A DNA stretch of 34,038 bases from a virus, in the IMG/VR virus record IMGVR_UViG_3300020183_000263, positions 1-34,038 of that record; one strand, written 5' to 3'. A program made the position numbers and the translations under genes. Positions 3,694-29,597 of the stretch are shown piece by piece (the first letter of the stretch is position 1; each line of letters opens with the position of its first letter). Under the pieces are notes generated by a model, which ran no database searches, had not been told where the DNA came from, and saw only the letters and a program-made list of their open reading frames with translations.

Positions 3694-4362
3694 TCATTTG
3701 AACGGCGGGCCATGTACCCAGGCAACTAACGCATATCTTTCTCCTTTTGTGACTGGAGTGCATTCATGAAGAGTATATGATGGAAAAAACACACTCATTC
3801 CTCTTTCTTTTTTAATTCTATTTCCATCTTGCCCATTATACAGGATCAATTCTCCACCTTCATACTCAGATGGATCTGAAAGTTGAACAACAACACTTAA
3901 CTTGCGATTATGTGGAGTAGTCCAACATAATGGATCTACATGTTGTTTATAACATCCCTGTTCTTCGGACGAATAGTAAGTAAATTGCAATTTTTCCAAT
4001 TTTGTAAGATCAAATTGAAAAAACTGTTCGTTCATATCATTAACCGCAGTTGTCAGTCTTTCATAAATCCACGAAGTTGTTGAATTCATTGGAATCCAAG
4101 ACACGAATGAACGACGATGATCTAAACAATCAACACCAGAACCACCAGTTTGTGCTCTTTCTAAATTTAAAGTTGTTCCAATCTTTACGATGTTGTCAAT
4201 TTCATCTACTACAAACAAACGATTAGTCCATGAATAAGGTTCATATTGGTGAGATGTTAAATGCCAATATTGATCACCATTGTTTGCATTTTCAAATACA
4301 TTATTTCTCAGTGAGGGAATATCATCAAGAGAATTATAAGATCTCAAGTAATCAGATATCAT
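3694..4362 (-). CDS. PKHD-type 2OG-Fe(II) oxygenase, 222 residues
   Basis: This is the clearest oxygenase of the set. QHVDPLCW (residues 140-147) gives His141 and Asp143. YEGGELILYNGQ (167-178) is the typical PKHD and P4H strand, MSVFFPSYTLHECTPV (189-204) gives His199, and GERYALVAWVHGP (207-219) gives Arg209 for 2-oxoglutarate. The first 90 residues are a helical and strand cap found in phage members. It resembles PiuC-like and prolyl-4-hydroxylase-like proteins that hydroxylate a side chain. It lies directly after the DUF4376-like gene and before the two other oxygenases, so it is expressed late with the tail fibres. Modification of a virion protein is one reasonable idea. Confidence 0.9.
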   Translation of the reverse strand: MISDYLRSYNSLDDIPSLRNNVFENANNGDQYWHLTSHQYEPYSWTNRLFVVDEIDNIVKIGTTLNLERAQTGGSGVDCLDHRRSFVSWIPMNSTTSWIYERLTTAVNDMNEQFFQFDLTKLEKLQFTYYSSEEQGCYKQHVDPLCWTTPHNRKLSVVVQLSDPSEYEGGELILYNGQDGNRIKKERGMSVFFPSYTLHECTPVTKGERYALVAWVHGPPFK

Positions 4363-4372
4363 ATTATATAAA

Positions 4373-4924
4373 TTAAAGATTAGTTGATGGCCAAGAAATT
4401 GTGTAATTAATTTTTAGGAAATCTTTTAGTTTTGAAACTGAAGAAAGTCTAGATGCAAATTCCATTTCAACATCAAAACATGCTTGAATATAATCGTGAA
4501 TGGCATCGGTTAAACTGACAATTTCTGTACCACTTAATTGTACCACACCATCTCTTGTTTTCCAATTATAAGTTTTTTCTAGATCATTTGATACAAGCAT
4601 TCTTTTTTGATATAACGAATTAACTGTTCCTTCATTCAAAACATAAACGTTGTCGTTATATGTTACTACTTCTGTTTGTGCTTGCCAACGAAGATCTGCA
4701 ACATCATCTAAAATTTTACCTTTTAAACTATTTACAATTAACGAATCGCAGGAATATTTTAAAATTTTTTTATCGGTTAATTTTATCCATCCAAGATCAT
4801 CTAACTCAGAATCTGTCATAAAACAAAGACCAGAAATGTTTCTCCAGTTTATTGGTAACTCTTGAAAACAATTATTAATTTTTTTATTTTCTTTATCTAC
4901 AAAAGTATAAAGATTGTCAATCAT
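4373..4924 (-). CDS. DUF4376-like protein, probable tail-fibre-associated, 183 residues
   Basis: Residues 119-163 (YNWKTRDGVVQLSGTEI..LTDAIHDYIQACFD) match the pattern of the DUF4376 domain, a helical segment in small proteins encoded beside phage tail fibres. The N-terminal 110 residues contain WRNISGLCFMTDSEL and a run of short strands and are of unknown role. The start ATG overlaps the stop of the upstream gene by 4 bases (ATGA, 4921-4924), so the two are translationally coupled. A role as fibre-assembly chaperone or small fibre component is inference from domain and position. Confidence 0.65.
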   Translation of the reverse strand: MIDNLYTFVDKENKKINNCFQELPINWRNISGLCFMTDSELDDLGWIKLTDKKILKYSCDSLIVNSLKGKILDDVADLRWQAQTEVVTYNDNVYVLNEGTVNSLYQKRMLVSNDLEKTYNWKTRDGVVQLSGTEIVSLTDAIHDYIQACFDVEMEFASRLSSVSKLKDFLKINYTISWPSTNL

Positions 4925-5472
4925 TGTTTTGGTCTCCTAGGTTTTTTAGTTTTTTTTGATAATTGAGCAGAATCCTCATTATCTTTTTTGGCACCTTCTA
5001 ACATTTTTTGCTCTTCAGCAAATTCAAGTGCAATTTGATTCATGTCACGCTCAAATTCTAATGCTTTAATTCTTTTTTCTCTTTCTAAATCAAGTTTAAG
5101 GGTCATATCTGTTACGCCAACAGAATGTATTTGGTTCATAATTTCCCAAGGAGATGCTCCTTTAAGCATTGCTGTCCGTTCATCATCATTTTCCCATTTA
5201 CGCCAAGCACTGAAATTTTGTTTTGGTCTTGTTGCGACTTCAACTCCACAAGCAGCAGCTATTTGTTCAAGTAATTCAACAGCTTCAACTGGTTGTAATA
5301 ATACCCATAGGGATGCAAAATCACCTCTCATTGAAACTTCAATCATTCCATTTCCACAACCTCCAACTGCCACAGTTCTTGCTCTTGTTCTGTTTTGCAG
5401 CATTCCTTGATATTGATTTTCTTCTTCAAGTTTGCGAAGTCTTTGGCGCTGAGTAAGATTTTTTTCAGACAT
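4921..5472 (-). CDS. Hypothetical protein, 183 residues, in the tail-fibre operon
   Basis: I do not recognise a named family. The N-terminus is a charged helix (LTQRQRLRKLEEENQYQ). The middle (AVGGCGNGMIEVSMRGDFASLWVLLQP, about residues 36-62) is a compact hydrophobic domain. The C-terminal third (about 125-183) is a long charged coiled-coil-like helix ending in a very basic KKTKKPRRPKQ tail. That mix suggests a binding or chaperone protein. It is preceded by a late-promoter-like AATAAATA (5507-5514) and is coupled by an ATGA overlap to the DUF4376-like gene. It is the first gene of the operon that ends with the oxygenases. Confidence 0.7.
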   Translation of the reverse strand: MSEKNLTQRQRLRKLEEENQYQGMLQNRTRARTVAVGGCGNGMIEVSMRGDFASLWVLLQPVEAVELLEQIAAACGVEVATRPKQNFSAWRKWENDDERTAMLKGASPWEIMNQIHSVGVTDMTLKLDLEREKRIKALEFERDMNQIALEFAEEQKMLEGAKKDNEDSAQLSKKTKKPRRPKQ

Positions 5473-22908: not shown

Positions 22909-25776
22909 TTACCTACTTAAACGGGCCATGTTATTATTTACACTTACAGGAACTGGGAATGCAATAATTTGACTTCCTCCTGTAGGCATTGGAATAGGTT
23001 TTTCAATAATAATTGGTTGAACAGCGATCATCGTATCACCTCCATTATCATAGGAAGGATACATGGAGAGTGAAGAATAGTTTCTTTTATTTTGTGGTCC
23101 TATGAGACCGCCACCCTGCATATTGCCACCATAAGGAAGACCTATATCGGAGGCCGCCCCTGGTTTTGGTTTTGGTTTTGGTTTGGGCGAACGGGCGGCC
23201 GCACCACCAAACAATCCAAATTTATCATACCAAGGTCGTTTAGACCTGAATTTTTCTTCATCTTTTGCCCTCTTCAATAAACTTTGAATTTTCTTTTTTG
23301 CCTCTAGTTGTTTCGTTGTCTCTTTTGGTCTTGATTTTTTTTGTTTTTTTCCTTCATCTGTTTCAATAGATCCACCTTTTGTCCAAACATCTTCTACAGC
23401 ATCAAGAATTTTTTGGGGATCTCCTCCATTTAATGCATTGATATGTGTCGATACGTGAGGTCCTGTAGCACGTCCTGTTATGCCTTGTGTGCCTATTATA
23501 TCACCTGCACGTAATACATCACCTTTATTTACATCAGTTCCATCCAAGTGTCCTAATAATATTTCATATTTTTTACCGTTAATTGTAACTTCTCCAGTTA
23601 CCCAATTTCCATACCCTGATCCAGACATACCAGAACCAGATCCGTGAAATCCTTTTCCGGTAATTTTCAAATTATCAAATGGATTTTGAATATTTGCACC
23701 CATTCCACCTAAAGATATGTCAATACCAGTTTGTTCAGCATCTCGATCACCTCTTTGCGTTACAATGCCTCCTCCTTTAATTGGTCCACCTTTAATAATA
23801 GGTCTTTTTGCCCCCAACCAAGAACCATCAGAACCAAAATTCTTTAAATAGTCAAGACGTTCTTTTGCTTTTTGTTCTTTATTAGATGGTTTTTCAAAGT
23901 TTAATGTGAACCAAGCAGATGCCTCCATGGCATTTTTAAATTCTTTGTTTACATATTGTTTTCCAGCATCTTCTCTCAAAGCATAATCTATTTGACGCTG
24001 CCATTTCTTTGCCCAATCCTTTCCAGCAAATGCAACCATCCCATCAAATCTTGAAGCATGGTGTTGAAATAAACCTCCAGATTTTCCATTATCTCCAATT
24101 GCTCCAGCATCAAAAGAAGACTCTGCTTGAATATTTGCAAGCATACCCATAGCATGATTATGAGAAAGTCCTTTGCTTATTAAATAATCATAAACTTCCT
24201 TTGAAGAAACAAAGTTTTCTGCACCTTCAGCATATCCACCCGGACCAGCTGCTCCTCCTCCTCCGCCGCCGCCTCCGCCGCCACCGCCGCCAGCAGCAGG
24301 AACTTTAAGCAACTCATCAGTAACACTCTTAAGTGCCTCATTGACTCTGGTTTGAATCAAAGTTGCAAGTAAATTAGTTGTTATTTCACTTTGTTGTCCC
24401 ATCAAAGGAACAGTACCACCATCAGCCATTCCCAGAATTGAACGATTTGCAGCATCTAAACCACCACTTTGCGCTTGTGATAAGGATCCAACGCCACTTG
24501 AAACTGTGGATGCAATTTTTCTTACATTAACCTTTTGACCTAATGCAATTTTAACGCCGGCACTCATTAAAGCACCAATCCACCCACCTTTATCTAAACT
24601 CTCAGAAACGCCAGTCAATGCCTTATAAGGATTTGGCGTTTTCTTTGCACTTGGTTTTGGATTTGGATATAACTTTTCAATCTTTAATTTTCCACCAACA
24701 TCCTTTCCAGGACTCACTTTTTCTGGTTGAACTCTTTGTGGTCTTTGAACTCCCTGTGCTTTGAATGTTCTTCCAACAGCACCACCTACTATTTTACCAC
24801 CTCTTGTTGTTTGCCCTCCTCTAGCATACCCAGTAATAAGTCCACCATTTTTTGTCCTCTGAAACCCAGGTATTTGAAGTAAAGCTGCACCTACTGCCAA
24901 TGCTGCAAGAGTCCAATTTGCACCGGTTTTTAATCCCTCTACTAAAGGTGCTAAACTTAAACCTCGTTGTTTACTCAATCCTGCTTGAGCACCCTGAAGT
25001 TGTCTTTCAAGTAAAGTTGTATATGATCTTTGAGGTGTTGGAACTGTTGAACGAATCGGCGCTGGTGCTAATCCTGTGGGCGGACATTGGCAAGGGCCTC
25101 CAGGACCTTTTGGACCTTTGGGTTCTTTAAATCTTTTATGATATAAAATTGCAAGAATAATAGTTGCATTAAGAAGTTTGTTTAATCCAGATGAAAGTTC
25201 ATCAAACTTTTTAGTTGCATTCGGTCCGCCATATTTTTGAATAGTTCCTCTAACATTATCATAAGCATCATATGCTGCTTCAATGGAATTAACAGTTCCT
25301 GCAGCTGCACCACCAACAAATCCTTCAAGTGAATTTAATATTCCTGTAAAAACATCACCAGACACTTTTCCAATTTCTGGATTATTTTTATCTATTTTTG
25401 TAAGAGTTGGCAATCCTCTTTCAAATTGCGTAAATAAGTAACCTAAAAATGTAAAAGTAGCAAATCTCTGAACTGCATCTACAATTCCCACTCCTGGAAT
25501 TAAAGATTTAACTTTTTCTACTCCTCTAATACCTTTAGGTGTTTCTAATTTTTTTTCCTTTTTTAACCTTTTTTCAGTTTGTTTCCGTCTTTTTTTCTTT
25601 TCTTGTTTTTTCTTTTTTTCTTTAGTATTTTTCTTTAAAAATTTATCAATATCAATCAATTTTTCTTTTACTTGGAAATTTAATACATCATCAACTCTTC
25701 TATCATAAGATGCTGCCATTCTTTCTGCAGCGGTCAATTTTGATGGTGGTAGAAGTTTTTGTGTGTTGACTGCCAT
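22909..25776 (-). CDS. Large hub/tail protein with lysozyme-like and M23-like domains, 955 residues
   Basis: The N-terminus is Lys-rich and coiled (residues 45-90), followed by hydrophobic and Gly-rich parts. A run of about 14 glycines (about 495-510) links to a tail-lysozyme-like domain (about 520-648: VYDYLISKGLSHNHAMGMLA, NIQAESSFD with the likely catalytic Glu, GGLFQHHASR). After that comes an M23 peptidase-like fold (about 680-790: QTGIDISLG, YGNWVTGEV, LLGHLDG, GDVLRAGDIIGTQG, GRATGPHVSTHI). The usual first His before GID is Gln here, and the HxH pair reads HVSTH, so metal binding may be altered. The next gene upstream is the tape-measure candidate, so this protein may be tape measure or hub-associated. 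It probably opens the peptidoglycan during infection. Confidence 0.75.
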   Translation of the reverse strand: MAVNTQKLLPPSKLTAAERMAASYDRRVDDVLNFQVKEKLIDIDKFLKKNTKEKKKKQEKKKRRKQTEKRLKKEKKLETPKGIRGVEKVKSLIPGVGIVDAVQRFATFTFLGYLFTQFERGLPTLTKIDKNNPEIGKVSGDVFTGILNSLEGFVGGAAAGTVNSIEAAYDAYDNVRGTIQKYGGPNATKKFDELSSGLNKLLNATIILAILYHKRFKEPKGPKGPGGPCQCPPTGLAPAPIRSTVPTPQRSYTTLLERQLQGAQAGLSKQRGLSLAPLVEGLKTGANWTLAALAVGAALLQIPGFQRTKNGGLITGYARGGQTTRGGKIVGGAVGRTFKAQGVQRPQRVQPEKVSPGKDVGGKLKIEKLYPNPKPSAKKTPNPYKALTGVSESLDKGGWIGALMSAGVKIALGQKVNVRKIASTVSSGVGSLSQAQSGGLDAANRSILGMADGGTVPLMGQQSEITTNLLATLIQTRVNEALKSVTDELLKVPAAGGGGGGGGGGGGGAAGPGGYAEGAENFVSSKEVYDYLISKGLSHNHAMGMLANIQAESSFDAGAIGDNGKSGGLFQHHASRFDGMVAFAGKDWAKKWQRQIDYALREDAGKQYVNKEFKNAMEASAWFTLNFEKPSNKEQKAKERLDYLKNFGSDGSWLGAKRPIIKGGPIKGGGIVTQRGDRDAEQTGIDISLGGMGANIQNPFDNLKITGKGFHGSGSGMSGSGYGNWVTGEVTINGKKYEILLGHLDGTDVNKGDVLRAGDIIGTQGITGRATGPHVSTHINALNGGDPQKILDAVEDVWTKGGSIETDEGKKQKKSRPKETTKQLEAKKKIQSLLKRAKDEEKFRSKRPWYDKFGLFGGAAARSPKPKPKPKPGAASDIGLPYGGNMQGGGLIGPQNKRNYSSLSMYPSYDNGGDTMIAVQPIIIEKPIPMPTGGSQIIAFPVPVSVNNNMARLSR
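24245..24300. repeat. Trinucleotide repeat coding for a polyglycine linker
   Basis: A run of CCN triplets on the plus strand (mostly ccg and cct) encodes about 14 consecutive Gly on the minus strand. It joins the N-terminal part to the lysozyme-like domain of the 955-residue protein. Slippage would change the linker length without breaking the frame. Confidence 0.8.
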
Positions 25777-25777
25777 C

Positions 25778-27823
25778 TTAGACTATCCCGTAGATATCTG
25801 CAATGGTTCCTCTATCACTCATCGGAGAAATTGCAGAGAAAGATGGAACTTGTGTTCCTCCTGCTGCCATAGGAGCATTGTTTGCTGCTGGTTGTGTAAT
25901 TGGTGGAAGTGTCATGATACCACCTTTACCACCTCTTGAGAGTGGAGTTGGCATATATCTTCGATTTCTTTTTCCAAGTTTAGTTGGATTTGAATTACTA
26001 TCTGTCAGTGCAACTAATTTATCAATTAAAGAAACGCCTAATTTATTAACCGTATCTGTTGGTAATACATATTCGCCTGGTTGAACTGCAGTAAGTTGTC
26101 GATCTGCTGTTCCTCCAGGAATATTGTAACCAGTAGATTCGCCAATTAAACCACCACCTTGTTTTTTGCCACCAAAAACGCCAACTATATTCTGGAAGAA
26201 ATTCATTTTTGGTTTTGATTTGGCAGTAGGCTGCATATAAATTGGTCTCATTTGACGCATCATTTTTGCCACATCTGACTTATATTTTTCAGTGTCATTT
26301 TCATGCGGAGGTGCATAAGCAGCAGCATTTGCGTTCCAAGCACTCACAGGATCTTTGAAATCTGAGAAGTTTGACATTCCTTCACGATGTTTATCCCATA
26401 AACGAATATTATGTTTGACGGATTCTTCTAAAGTTTTATAGTTTAAGAATTTGCCATTTGTTCCTCTTTGATTAAATGGATTATTACCATACATATTTCT
26501 CAACCAACCAGTTTCTTTCATTGCAATTGCTGCCTGCAATTCAGGAAACTTTGCTCCATGTTTTTTTGCAAGATTATAAACGCGCATGAAGGATTTGACT
26601 TCATCGCCACCATATCCTACCATTCCTCCACTTTGAGCAAACTGAATATTATTTGCAAATTTTGGTTTATTTGCATTTGGTCCGCCGAACATAGCATTAA
26701 GTGAAAGTAATTTATTCGCTCCAATTGCTTTTACAGCAGCACGATTCATTACAATTTCACCAGGTTGCAACGCGGTTAATTGTGTATCTGGGCCTGCTCC
26801 AGTGATTTTCATACCAGTATTTGAATCAATATATCCACCAACATCTTTTTTAGGAATTTGCGGTTGAGATGCCTGCTGCTCAATTACAATACCCAAACCT
26901 GGCATTCCTGGAAAACGTGTATTTGCATCAATAACAGCTTTTGTTTCTTCTTCTTTACTTAATGGTGTTCCTTTTCTCTTTGCTGCCTCATCTATTGCTC
27001 TTTGATTTGCATTTTTACTATCATTCAACAATTTAATGCCACCAGACACTGTTGCAATTGCCGCAGTTAAAAGTGGATTTACCACTGCTAGTCTTGCAAG
27101 TGATGCAATAATTGTTCCAGAAATAGAAGCAATTAAACTACCAAGAGGAGTAAAAAATGCTAATGCCCCAACAAGAATGGATGGCCACCAATCTTTAAAA
27201 AATCTTACTAATGTAAAAATTTTCTTTTTATTTTTTGGATCACCTAACCAATCCATTAATTTTGTAAATGCGCGACCAAGTAAAGTATAAAGAATAAAGT
27301 TCCAAATACGATCAAAAATACTCTTAAATGGCGCGATTAACTTTTCCGCAATTTTTTTACTAATTTTCTTTACACCTTCAAGAGCATCTTCTCTTTTCTT
27401 TCTTTTTTCGTTTTCTTCTTCTTTCTTATCATCAGCATCTTTTTTCTTATCAAACTTAAACTGCTTCTTTAACGTATCAAGAATTGAGTTTAAAATCTTT
27501 AAGACACCAAATGATGATTTTTGTGCTTCTGCTTGTGGGGTATATTTGACAAGTGCGCCACCTGCTGCAGGAAGTGCTTTAATTCCAATTGGTTTAACTC
27601 TTGCTGTTGCTACTGCTTTCTTTTGTAATACCTTCTCTACAAAAGTTTTGAATGCAACTTTATTATTTCTCTTCTTAAATGCTTCTTTTCTTTCTGAAGG
27701 ACTTAGTTGATTTCCTGCAATTGTTCCCTGTGCTGATAATTCTTGAACATATTGGTCATACCTATCCTTACCAACTAAACTAAGGGCTGATATTCTTTTA
27801 TTGTTGTTTGGATTATCAGCCAT
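25778..27823 (-). CDS. Tape-measure candidate with glucosaminidase-like domain, 681 residues
   Basis: This gene lies directly after gp26/gp51, where long-tailed phages place the tape measure. Residues 120-180 are a Lys/Glu-rich coiled coil, then come hydrophobic segments (FILYTLLGRAFTKL, WPSILVGALAFFTPLGSLIA). Two copies of a DxQLTAxQPGExVxxxxxV motif occur (about residues 345 and 590), as seen in tail tape proteins. Between them, about 398-528, is a glucosaminidase (GH73-like) pattern: AIAMKETGW with the likely catalytic Glu, NNPFNQRG, ESVKHNIRLWDKH and AYAPPHENDTEKY. T4 gp29 is 590 residues, so the length is compatible. The ATG overlaps the gp51 stop by 8 bases. Confidence 0.7.
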   Translation of the reverse strand: MADNPNNNKRISALSLVGKDRYDQYVQELSAQGTIAGNQLSPSERKEAFKKRNNKVAFKTFVEKVLQKKAVATARVKPIGIKALPAAGGALVKYTPQAEAQKSSFGVLKILNSILDTLKKQFKFDKKKDADDKKEEENEKRKKREDALEGVKKISKKIAEKLIAPFKSIFDRIWNFILYTLLGRAFTKLMDWLGDPKNKKKIFTLVRFFKDWWPSILVGALAFFTPLGSLIASISGTIIASLARLAVVNPLLTAAIATVSGGIKLLNDSKNANQRAIDEAAKRKGTPLSKEEETKAVIDANTRFPGMPGLGIVIEQQASQPQIPKKDVGGYIDSNTGMKITGAGPDTQLTALQPGEIVMNRAAVKAIGANKLLSLNAMFGGPNANKPKFANNIQFAQSGGMVGYGGDEVKSFMRVYNLAKKHGAKFPELQAAIAMKETGWLRNMYGNNPFNQRGTNGKFLNYKTLEESVKHNIRLWDKHREGMSNFSDFKDPVSAWNANAAAYAPPHENDTEKYKSDVAKMMRQMRPIYMQPTAKSKPKMNFFQNIVGVFGGKKQGGGLIGESTGYNIPGGTADRQLTAVQPGEYVLPTDTVNKLGVSLIDKLVALTDSNSNPTKLGKRNRRYMPTPLSRGGKGGIMTLPPITQPAANNAPMAAGGTQVPSFSAISPMSDRGTIADIYGIV

Positions 27824-27992
27824 TAGCCTGTCGTTGTTTGAGTTCTTCTTCCTCTATGTGATTTTTAAGGAAAGTTACATAAATGTCTCTTTCCCACGGA
27901 ATCATGTTTTCAATCTCTGTTAATGAATATTTATGATACTGCATTAACGAAAAGTTGAGTTGATAATAACTCTCCAGGTCCATATGGACCAT
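27816..27992 (-). CDS. 51: gp51-like tail assembly chaperone, 58 codons, likely a frameshift extension of gp26
   Basis: The frame reads MVHMDLESYYQLNFSLMQYH, then KYSLTEIENMIPWERDIYVT and FLKNHIEEEELKQRQANG. The SLTEIENMxPWERDIYxxxL helix is the hallmark of the downstream half of tail-assembly chaperones (lambda T and T4 gp51 type). It starts 3 bases after the gp26 stop in the -1 frame, and that frame is open back to a T-TTT-TTC slippery site. So it is either translated separately from the ATG at 27992 or, more likely, also made as a 299-residue gp26-gp51 fusion. Its end overlaps the tape-measure candidate, whose folding such chaperones assist. Confidence 0.85.
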   Translation of the reverse strand: MVHMDLESYYQLNFSLMQYHKYSLTEIENMIPWERDIYVTFLKNHIEEEELKQRQANG

Positions 27993-28021
27993 TCCTACGC
28001 GAAAAAAGATGATAACCCTTC
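27977..28021 (-). promoter_or_regulatory. -1 programmed frameshift signal linking gp26 and gp51
   Basis: Three elements occur in order on the minus strand: a Shine-Dalgarno-like GAAGGG (28021-28016), the slippery heptamer T-TTT-TTC in the gp26 frame (28007-28001), and a perfect 14-base palindrome GGTCCATATGGACC (27990-27977) that can fold as a hairpin 10 bases downstream. A -1 shift at the heptamer skips the TAG at 27995 and reads straight into the gp51 frame (CGC GTA GGA ATG ...). Confidence 0.75.
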
Positions 28022-28714
28022 TAGAACAACTTCACTTTCAACTTCAGTTTTTGGATTTGTAACTTGAATCTTATGACTGAGTTTAGGCATTGTTTCAAAG
28101 AACGACTCAATTTCTTTGAACTGTGCAGAGTTCATTTGATCTAAGAATTCTGCAATCTCTTTCTTCGTTACATCAGCAGCAGTCCATACCTCATCTTCAG
28201 TGTAGATCTTATCAACACAAGATGCAATTAAATCAAACGATTGATCAACTGCGTTGTTACCGGAGAAATCAAAGTTGTTTTTGATAAATTGATCCAGTGA
28301 TGGATATTTCATCTCCATCATGATAGAAGCATCAACTTTAATTTGCTTCTTATGGTCTGGGTTCTTTTCAACTTGAATTTCATCAATATTGATTTTTACA
28401 GGAACCGATGTTTCCTCATCGTCTGGACAAATGATATTGACTTCAATCTCTTCTCCAACAGACTTACCGCGAATATTGAGGAAAAGATATTCAATATCAA
28501 ATGTTGGAAGAGACTCAACCTTGATATTCTTTGTCTCAATACAGTTTTTGATAACTGTCTTGATTGCATTTGTAATCTGCTTCGAATCCTCAGATTCTAA
28601 TGCAAGAACAAGCAGTTTCTCTTCTCTTACAAGAAATGGACGATATTTGATTGTTTGTCCTGTCGATGGCAACTCCAACTCATAAGTCGGTGTAGAAATC
28701 TTTGGTAAAGGCAT
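27995..28714 (-). CDS. 26: gp26 baseplate hub / tail assembly chaperone, 239 residues
   Basis: The sequence has the T4 gp26 family pattern (PF12322): LPSTGQTIKYRPFLVREEKL, LVLALESEDS, IKTVIKNCIETKNIKVESLP, TFDIEYLFLNIRGKSVGEEI. The C-terminal half contains EIAEFLDQMNSAQFKEIESF and FETMPKLSHKIQV, which match the upstream half of tail-assembly chaperones. T4 gp26 is 208 residues, so this one is slightly longer. It lies just upstream of gp51 and the tape-measure candidate, in the position of lambda G and GT. The last codons (TCT TTT TTC GCG TAG) contain a slippery heptamer. A late-promoter-like box lies 26 bases before the ATG. Confidence 0.9.
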   Translation of the reverse strand: MPLPKISTPTYELELPSTGQTIKYRPFLVREEKLLVLALESEDSKQITNAIKTVIKNCIETKNIKVESLPTFDIEYLFLNIRGKSVGEEIEVNIICPDDEETSVPVKINIDEIQVEKNPDHKKQIKVDASIMMEMKYPSLDQFIKNNFDFSGNNAVDQSFDLIASCVDKIYTEDEVWTAADVTKKEIAEFLDQMNSAQFKEIESFFETMPKLSHKIQVTNPKTEVESEVVLEGLSSFFA

Positions 28715-28739: not shown

Positions 28740-28747
28740 TATTTATT
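28740..28747 (-). promoter_or_regulatory. Late-promoter-like box AATAAATA
   Basis: The minus strand reads ATAATAAATAATC, one mismatch from TATAAATA, 26 bases before the gp26 ATG. It overlaps the stop codon region of the upstream gene. It would drive the whole hub operon from gp26 down to 17031. Confidence 0.5.
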
Positions 28748-29597
28748 ATACAATTGGAGACGATGAAGTAAGACTTGTTGATACGTCATTAAGTCCTGTA
28801 GAAGGATTAACAGTATTTCCAGATGCTTTATAAGAAAGAGTTGGAACTCCTCCCGTATTAAATCCATTAATTGGAGTTGCCAAAGCTCCTGCTCCTTGAA
28901 GATTATTCGCAGCAGTGGCAAGTGTTTGTTCAAAAGTATACAATGATCTATTTACAATATATCTGGTATACGTGAAAGAAACTGTGCATTTTAATAGATC
29001 AGAGGACTCATAGGATACTGGAATTGAATTAATAGCAACTGGATATGCTTTAAAAAGTTTATAACTTAAATAATAACCTTTAAAATCTCTTTCAAATTTA
29101 TTAATATAAATTCCTTGAGAACGATACCCAGTTCCGCTACCCTTTTCATTTGAATCTGGAAATCTGAATCTATAATTGAAATTAGGATCATCCAATCCAA
29201 AAGCATTTTGTTCATTAGCAATATATTGCATCCATTGTTCAAAAAACCAAATGACTTTATATCCATTTTGATTATCATGATCTACATAAAATGTAAAATC
29301 TGCTCGATCATCATATTGTCTACGATATGCTAATCTTTCAGTAATACCAGTGTAATCATCGTTGATTTCATTAGTCATTAATGAAGAACCAGGAAGAGCC
29401 GCTTCGGAACAAGAAAGGCTAATTAATTCTTGATTAAATCCATTATAATTTAAATTTTTATTTGCCTTCAAATAATTAACAACATCTTGAGGGGGATCAA
29501 ACCAACATTGATAATTAGAAGTTAAAGCAGGTCTTAATAACCTTGATTTAATATAGTCTATTTTTCCAGTTTCTTTTTTTGGTTCTGGCGCAGCCAT
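28746..29597 (-). CDS. Tail-tube-fold baseplate protein, gp54-like, 283 residues
   Basis: The central part has the tube-protein pattern of gp19, gp48 and gp54 relatives: NYQCWFDPP, LISLSCSEAALPGSSLMTNE, RLAYRRQYDDRADFTFYVDH, VIWFFEQWMQYI, then SQGIYINKFERDF, YYLSYKLFKAYPVAINSIPV and LLKCTVSFTYTRYI. In T4 gp48 and gp54 cap the baseplate and start the tube. gp48 is in the plus operon here, so I assign this one as gp54-like. The C-terminal 60 residues (NLQGAGALATPINGFNTGGV) are low complexity. The gene diverges from the gp4 operon, with 39 bases between starts. T4 gp54 is about 320 residues. An alternative label is a second tail tube protein. Confidence 0.6.
   Translation of the reverse strand: MAAPEPKKETGKIDYIKSRLLRPALTSNYQCWFDPPQDVVNYLKANKNLNYNGFNQELISLSCSEAALPGSSLMTNEINDDYTGITERLAYRRQYDDRADFTFYVDHDNQNGYKVIWFFEQWMQYIANEQNAFGLDDPNFNYRFRFPDSNEKGSGTGYRSQGIYINKFERDFKGYYLSYKLFKAYPVAINSIPVSYESSDLLKCTVSFTYTRYIVNRSLYTFEQTLATAANNLQGAGALATPINGFNTGGVPTLSYKASGNTVNPSTGLNDVSTSLTSSSPIV

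Follow-up and report, generated by a model that had tools for sequence, protein, structure and literature searches.

A programmed −1 ribosomal frameshift very probably makes the long form of the tail assembly chaperone in a T4-like virus, by joining the frame of gp26 to the downstream frame annotated as 'gp51'. The source is a 34-kb IMG/VR virus fragment (the window, i.e., the whole stretch of 34,038 nucleotides that was analyzed), of which the gp26 finds its closest isolate matches among Synechococcus and Prochlorococcus T4-like phages (78% identity). The frameshift reading draws on the site, its frame and its extreme conservation, the open −1 frame, the loss of start codons in relatives, an excess of RNA structure and the gene order. 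The slip itself and its rate are inferred. The junction comprises the following elements, 5' to 3' on the minus strand.

27995 to 28714, minus strand: gp26, putative short tail assembly chaperone (TAC-N, lambda gpG-like), 239 aa; Pfam PF12322 (T4_baseplate), E = 9.8e-78, residues 9-239; PHROG 150 'baseplate hub', E = 1.2e-82.
28016 to 28021, minus strand: GAAGGG, Shine-Dalgarno-like (SD-like) sequence 8 nt 5' of the heptamer, candidate frameshift stimulator.
28001 to 28007, minus strand: slippery heptamer T_TTT_TTC in the gp26 frame.
27998 to 28000, minus strand: GCG codon between the heptamer and the stop.
27995 to 27997, minus strand: TAG, zero-frame stop of gp26.
27816 to 28001, minus strand: C-terminal T-like domain annotated as 'gp51', 61 aa in the −1 frame after the slip; PHROG 634 'baseplate hub assembly catalyst', E = 8.6e-28.

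The 3' end of gp26 thus reads GAA GGG TTA TCA TCT TTT TTC GCG TAG. The −1 open reading frame (28031-27816, 71 codons) runs across the gp26 stop and is the 'gp51' frame, which is closed by a TGA at 27818-27816. Reading after the slip gives RVGMVHMDLESYYQLNF..., and the predicted fusion counts 238 + 61 = 299 residues. An earlier sequence-only reading of this DNA had proposed the slippery site ahead of the gp26 stop, the open −1 frame, the GAAGGG 8 bases upstream and a fusion of this length, all of which were found at these positions. An ATG at 27992-27990 could also open 'gp51' separately, in which case the protein would count 58 aa.

In the proposed mechanism, most ribosomes would terminate at the gp26 stop, which gives the short form of 239 aa (TAC-N, the counterpart of lambda gpG). 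A smaller number would stall on T_TTT_TTC while tRNA-Phe occupies both the P and the A site, move back by one base and read 61 more codons, which gives the long form of 299 aa (TAC-NC, the counterpart of gpGT). How often this happens is probably adjusted by the GAAGGG on the 5' side and the stem-loop on the 3' side. If the system works as in lambda, the tape measure protein would be coated by many copies of the short chaperone and few of the long one, and the C-terminal domain would recruit tail tube subunits.

Conservation of the heptamer and of the −1 register among relatives had been named beforehand as a test on which the proposal should stand or fall, and both are conserved. Relatives were gathered from IMG/VR in two ways, through the similarity of their proteins and through a DNA pattern with either Phe codon and any preceding base, and a non-redundant set was defined at less than 90% identity over the last 240 bases. 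A Phe-Phe ending of gp26 occurs in 193 of the 195 non-redundant relatives, and every one of them (193/193) encodes it as T TTT TTC, compared to 1 out of 197 internal Phe-Phe sites of the same genes, which served as control. The same holds for all distinct relatives with this ending (240/240). The DNA-pattern scan yielded 119 new loci, all of which are gp26 homologues with T TTT TTC. The codon 5' of the heptamer varies (TCT, AGT, GAT, AAT, GCT, GGT): the gene tree implies 46 or more changes of this codon, whose final T is retained throughout. The second Phe codon at the site is invariably TTC, yet TTT makes up 68% of the Phe codons in these genes and is mostly used for the second Phe of internal Phe-Phe sites. 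The conservation of the heptamer is not due to chance. The two exceptions to the Phe-Phe ending are Vibrio phage K364, from a distant group whose genes end differently, and L287, a Menderavirus record that has lost a T. Around position 2250, L287 carries five T where the 98% identical L286 carries six, which extends the zero frame; the missing T probably reflects either a natural indel or an error in reading the homopolymer.

Once the slip has occurred, the −1 frame is open for 56-68 codons into the same domain in every readable relative except the isolate S-SCSM1; in four relatives this frame runs past the contig end. The −1 arrangement also occurs in very distant relatives, both with T_TTT_TTC (Stenotrophomonas phage Moby, Aeromonas phage AS-zj, Vibrio phages phi-Grn1 and D490, Acidovorax phage ACP17 and Pseudomonas phage Astolliot) and with T_TTT_TTT (Sinorhizobium phage phiM12, Pseudomonas phage pf16 and Methylophilales phage Melnitz-1). 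In the Ackermannviridae phages SD25 and Kevin and in Vibrio phage K364, the C-terminal frame lies −1 to gp26 as well, with the endings GTTTTT, GTTTTC or CTTTTT. A search of IMG/VR with the K364 gp26 as query matched no contigs. In the Synechococcus phage S-SCSM1 (locus 3700-3760), an 11-nt insertion behind the retained heptamer shifts the C-terminal domain to the +1 frame, where it has an ATG of its own. The insertion junction was not found in IMG/VR; either it stems from faulty sequencing, or this phage is a natural case of escape from frameshifting.

Two predicted hairpins follow the heptamer in the window.

27977 to 27990, minus strand: palindrome GGTCCATATGGACC, as RNA a predicted 5-bp hairpin with an AUAU loop, 10 nt 3' of the heptamer; candidate stimulatory structure.
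27948 to 27976, minus strand: second predicted hairpin, directly 3' of the first; −13.6 kcal/mol for both hairpins.

Across 191 sequences, the RNA right after the heptamer is more stable than expected when the −1 frame protein and the codon usage are preserved during randomization (mean z = −2.12), compared to mean z-scores of −0.34, −0.01, −0.83 and −0.16 in four windows further downstream. For the window's own sequence, the protein-preserving randomization gives z = −2.7 (0/100) and dinucleotide shuffles give −1.42. The perfect palindrome 10 bases after the heptamer, to which the sequence-only reading had drawn attention, is indeed present; it is not conserved as a sequence among relatives, and its retention as a DNA sequence was rejected. 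What recurs instead is a stem-loop that begins approximately 4-11 nt 3' of the heptamer and differs among lineages: the 5-bp AUAU hairpin in the window, a GC-rich stem of 6-7 bp in P-HM1-like phages, 11-12 bp in a P-SSM2-like group and 14 bp in S-PM2 (z = −4.33). Covariation within the window's hairpin is suggestive: a simple Fisher test gives p = 2e-5 and 8e-4, while tree-independent pairs give no significant signal, at a power that is too low and with a control pair behaving alike. The upstream Glu-Gly codons match the anti-SD sequence more strongly than synonymous choices would give, with a mean duplex energy of −6.67 kcal/mol in relatives versus −5.13 kcal/mol for synonymous randomization and −1.70 kcal/mol at other sites. 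GAG is used for 122 of the 186 upstream Glu codons, against 31% of the Glu codons elsewhere in these genes. The site is hence flanked by both types of candidate stimulator, an SD-like element and a downstream structure, although the window's own hairpin is weak by the dinucleotide shuffles and the tree-aware covariation. Tentatively, and with the odds leaning slightly against it, the heptamer may have been frozen across the T4-like cyanophages while the adjacent stimulatory stem-loop was repeatedly rebuilt.

Alternatively, the locus could encode two separate proteins: gp26 would terminate at its stop, and ribosomes that re-initiate, or that bind at a site belonging to 'gp51' itself, would translate 'gp51' from the ATG at 27992-27990. 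The C-terminal frame can be opened by an ATG in the window and in 142 of the 188 non-redundant relatives, and some separate 'gp51' product is therefore possible. Current records agree with such an arrangement in that most of those examined show a pair of separate genes or lack an annotation for the second one, S-SCSM1 could work in no other way, and in Vibrio phage K364 and SD25 the stop and the start overlap in the absence of T_TTT_TTC. Nonetheless, none of the start codons ATG, GTG and TTG precedes the C-terminal domain in 29 of the 188 lineages, so that the fusion is the only plausible product there and separate translation would require an unusual start. In the window, the GAAGGG lies approximately 23 nt from the ATG, too distant to serve it. 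Separate translation would also leave the invariant, phase-fixed heptamer, the constant −1 relation and the RNA structure unexplained, and we consider it very unlikely as the main route.

The long form could also arise before translation, if an extra U were inserted in some mRNAs at the T run. The run of six T is indeed present, and other genes are known to undergo transcriptional slippage at such runs. Such slippage would, however, favor longer runs, whereas the relatives have exactly six T in the phase T_TTT_TTC and never TTT as the second Phe codon (240/240). The SD-like element and the downstream stem-loop are hallmarks of ribosomal slippage instead, and slippage during transcription appears exceedingly improbable. 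The programmed −1 ribosomal frameshift that fuses the gp26 and 'gp51' frames, as initially proposed, is the reading to which the conservation of heptamer and frame points.

The chaperone role is suggested by the protein family, the gene order and the architecture. The neighboring genes in the window are as follows.

28746 to 29597, minus strand: tail tube (gp19-like), at the position of lambda V; PHROG 45 'tail tube', E = 6.1e-26.
25778 to 27823, minus strand: tape-measure candidate, 681 aa, at the position of lambda H; weak PHROG tape-measure match (E = 3.9e-4) and a position as in phiM12.

The order of tail tube, gp26, 'gp51'/T and tape-measure candidate corresponds to lambda V-G-T-H, which places the chaperone pair between the tail tube and tape-measure genes, with weak support on the tape-measure side. 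In phiM12, one ORF intervenes, and the annotation of the gene beyond it notes a similarity to tape measure proteins. The gene pair had been described as lying immediately upstream of the tape-measure candidate, and the latter indeed begins so close that its ATG and the end of the T frame share an overlap of 8 bases. Downstream of the chaperone gene, two long proteins are encoded (681 and 955 aa; 22909-27823, minus strand), and both have tape-measure-like PHROG matches, the stronger being that of the 955-aa protein (E = 1.3e-13). Elsewhere among the tail genes (3694-4362, minus strand), an auxiliary-type gene matches a 2OG-Fe(II) oxygenase PHROG (E = 1e-30). As in other chaperone pairs, a short form would be accompanied by a long form with an added C-terminal domain. 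The likeness to the lambda G/GT design that had been suggested for this locus gains support from the gene order and from the start-codon loss in many relatives. For an AlphaFold model of gp26 (pLDDT 84), all strong matches are to predicted gp26 proteins of T4-like phages. Of the solved structures, the HK97 chaperone 2ob9 is matched with the highest probability, at insignificant E-values of 1.7-1.9, and a sequence search of solved structures returned nothing relevant.

T4 itself has the two proteins encoded by separate genes, as had been noted, yet its gp51 is not equivalent to the 58-aa 'gp51' considered here. In T4, genes 26 and 51 are divergently transcribed and paralogous (3803-5229 of the T4 locus). 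The T4 gp51 (249 aa) matches PF12322 over residues 1-201 (E = 3.9e-52) and PHROG 634 over residues 147-246 (E = 1.2e-23), whereas the T4 gp26 matches PF12322 alone. By these profile matches, the cyanophage 'gp51' corresponds only to the C-terminal end of T4 gp51. Since T4 gp51 carries PF12322 in full in addition to PHROG 634, it is the long form, made in T4 from a duplicated gene. T4 obtains its short and long forms from two paralogous genes with no frameshift, whereas in the window both would derive from one gene by a −1 frameshift. This agrees with a statement in PMC10885494, citing Vladimirov et al. 2022, that some T4-like phages have one short gene and one separate, fused long gene.

This kind of system is known. 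Work by Vladimirov and colleagues is said to have found frameshifting conserved in several T4-like groups, with T4 itself using genes 26 and 51. The lambda heptamer is G_GGA_AAG, whereas that of the window is T_TTT_TTC in a protein of the PF12322 family. What the locus has in common with lambda G/GT and the −1 chaperones of long-tailed phages (Xu, Hendrix and Duda 2004; PMC5009743) is a short form with a −1 fusion near the gene end, a slippery heptamer and a place between the tail tube and tape measure genes. Poly-T slippery sites in T4-like TAC-N genes are mentioned in PMC12846349, in a passage citing Vladimirov, Gautam and Davidson (Virology 2022, 566:9-15), and the T4-like chaperones to which that passage refers are of the same protein family as gp26 here. 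The GTTTTT-type frameshift of Vandenendeviridae and Andersonviridae (PMC12846349) likewise provides a conserved −1 chaperone extension 5' of the tape measure gene that was formerly annotated as a separate ORF, but its motif and phage families differ. Frameshifting in T4-like phages is already published; new here are the unannotated members, the large-scale conservation and the lineage-variable RNA stem-loop.

For phages that abound in marine and fresh waters, the analysis corrects how a core gene pair is annotated. In many lineages, the cyanophage 'gp51 hub assembly catalyst' would not be a stand-alone protein, and it is not the equivalent of T4 gp51. Hundreds of related viruses now form a large series in which the conservation of a phage frameshift site can be followed. 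A single protein family would have arrived at two solutions, frameshifting and gene duplication. If the stem-loop has indeed been rebuilt repeatedly beside a frozen heptamer, the clade would offer a natural series in which stem strength can be measured against the ratio of short to long chaperone.
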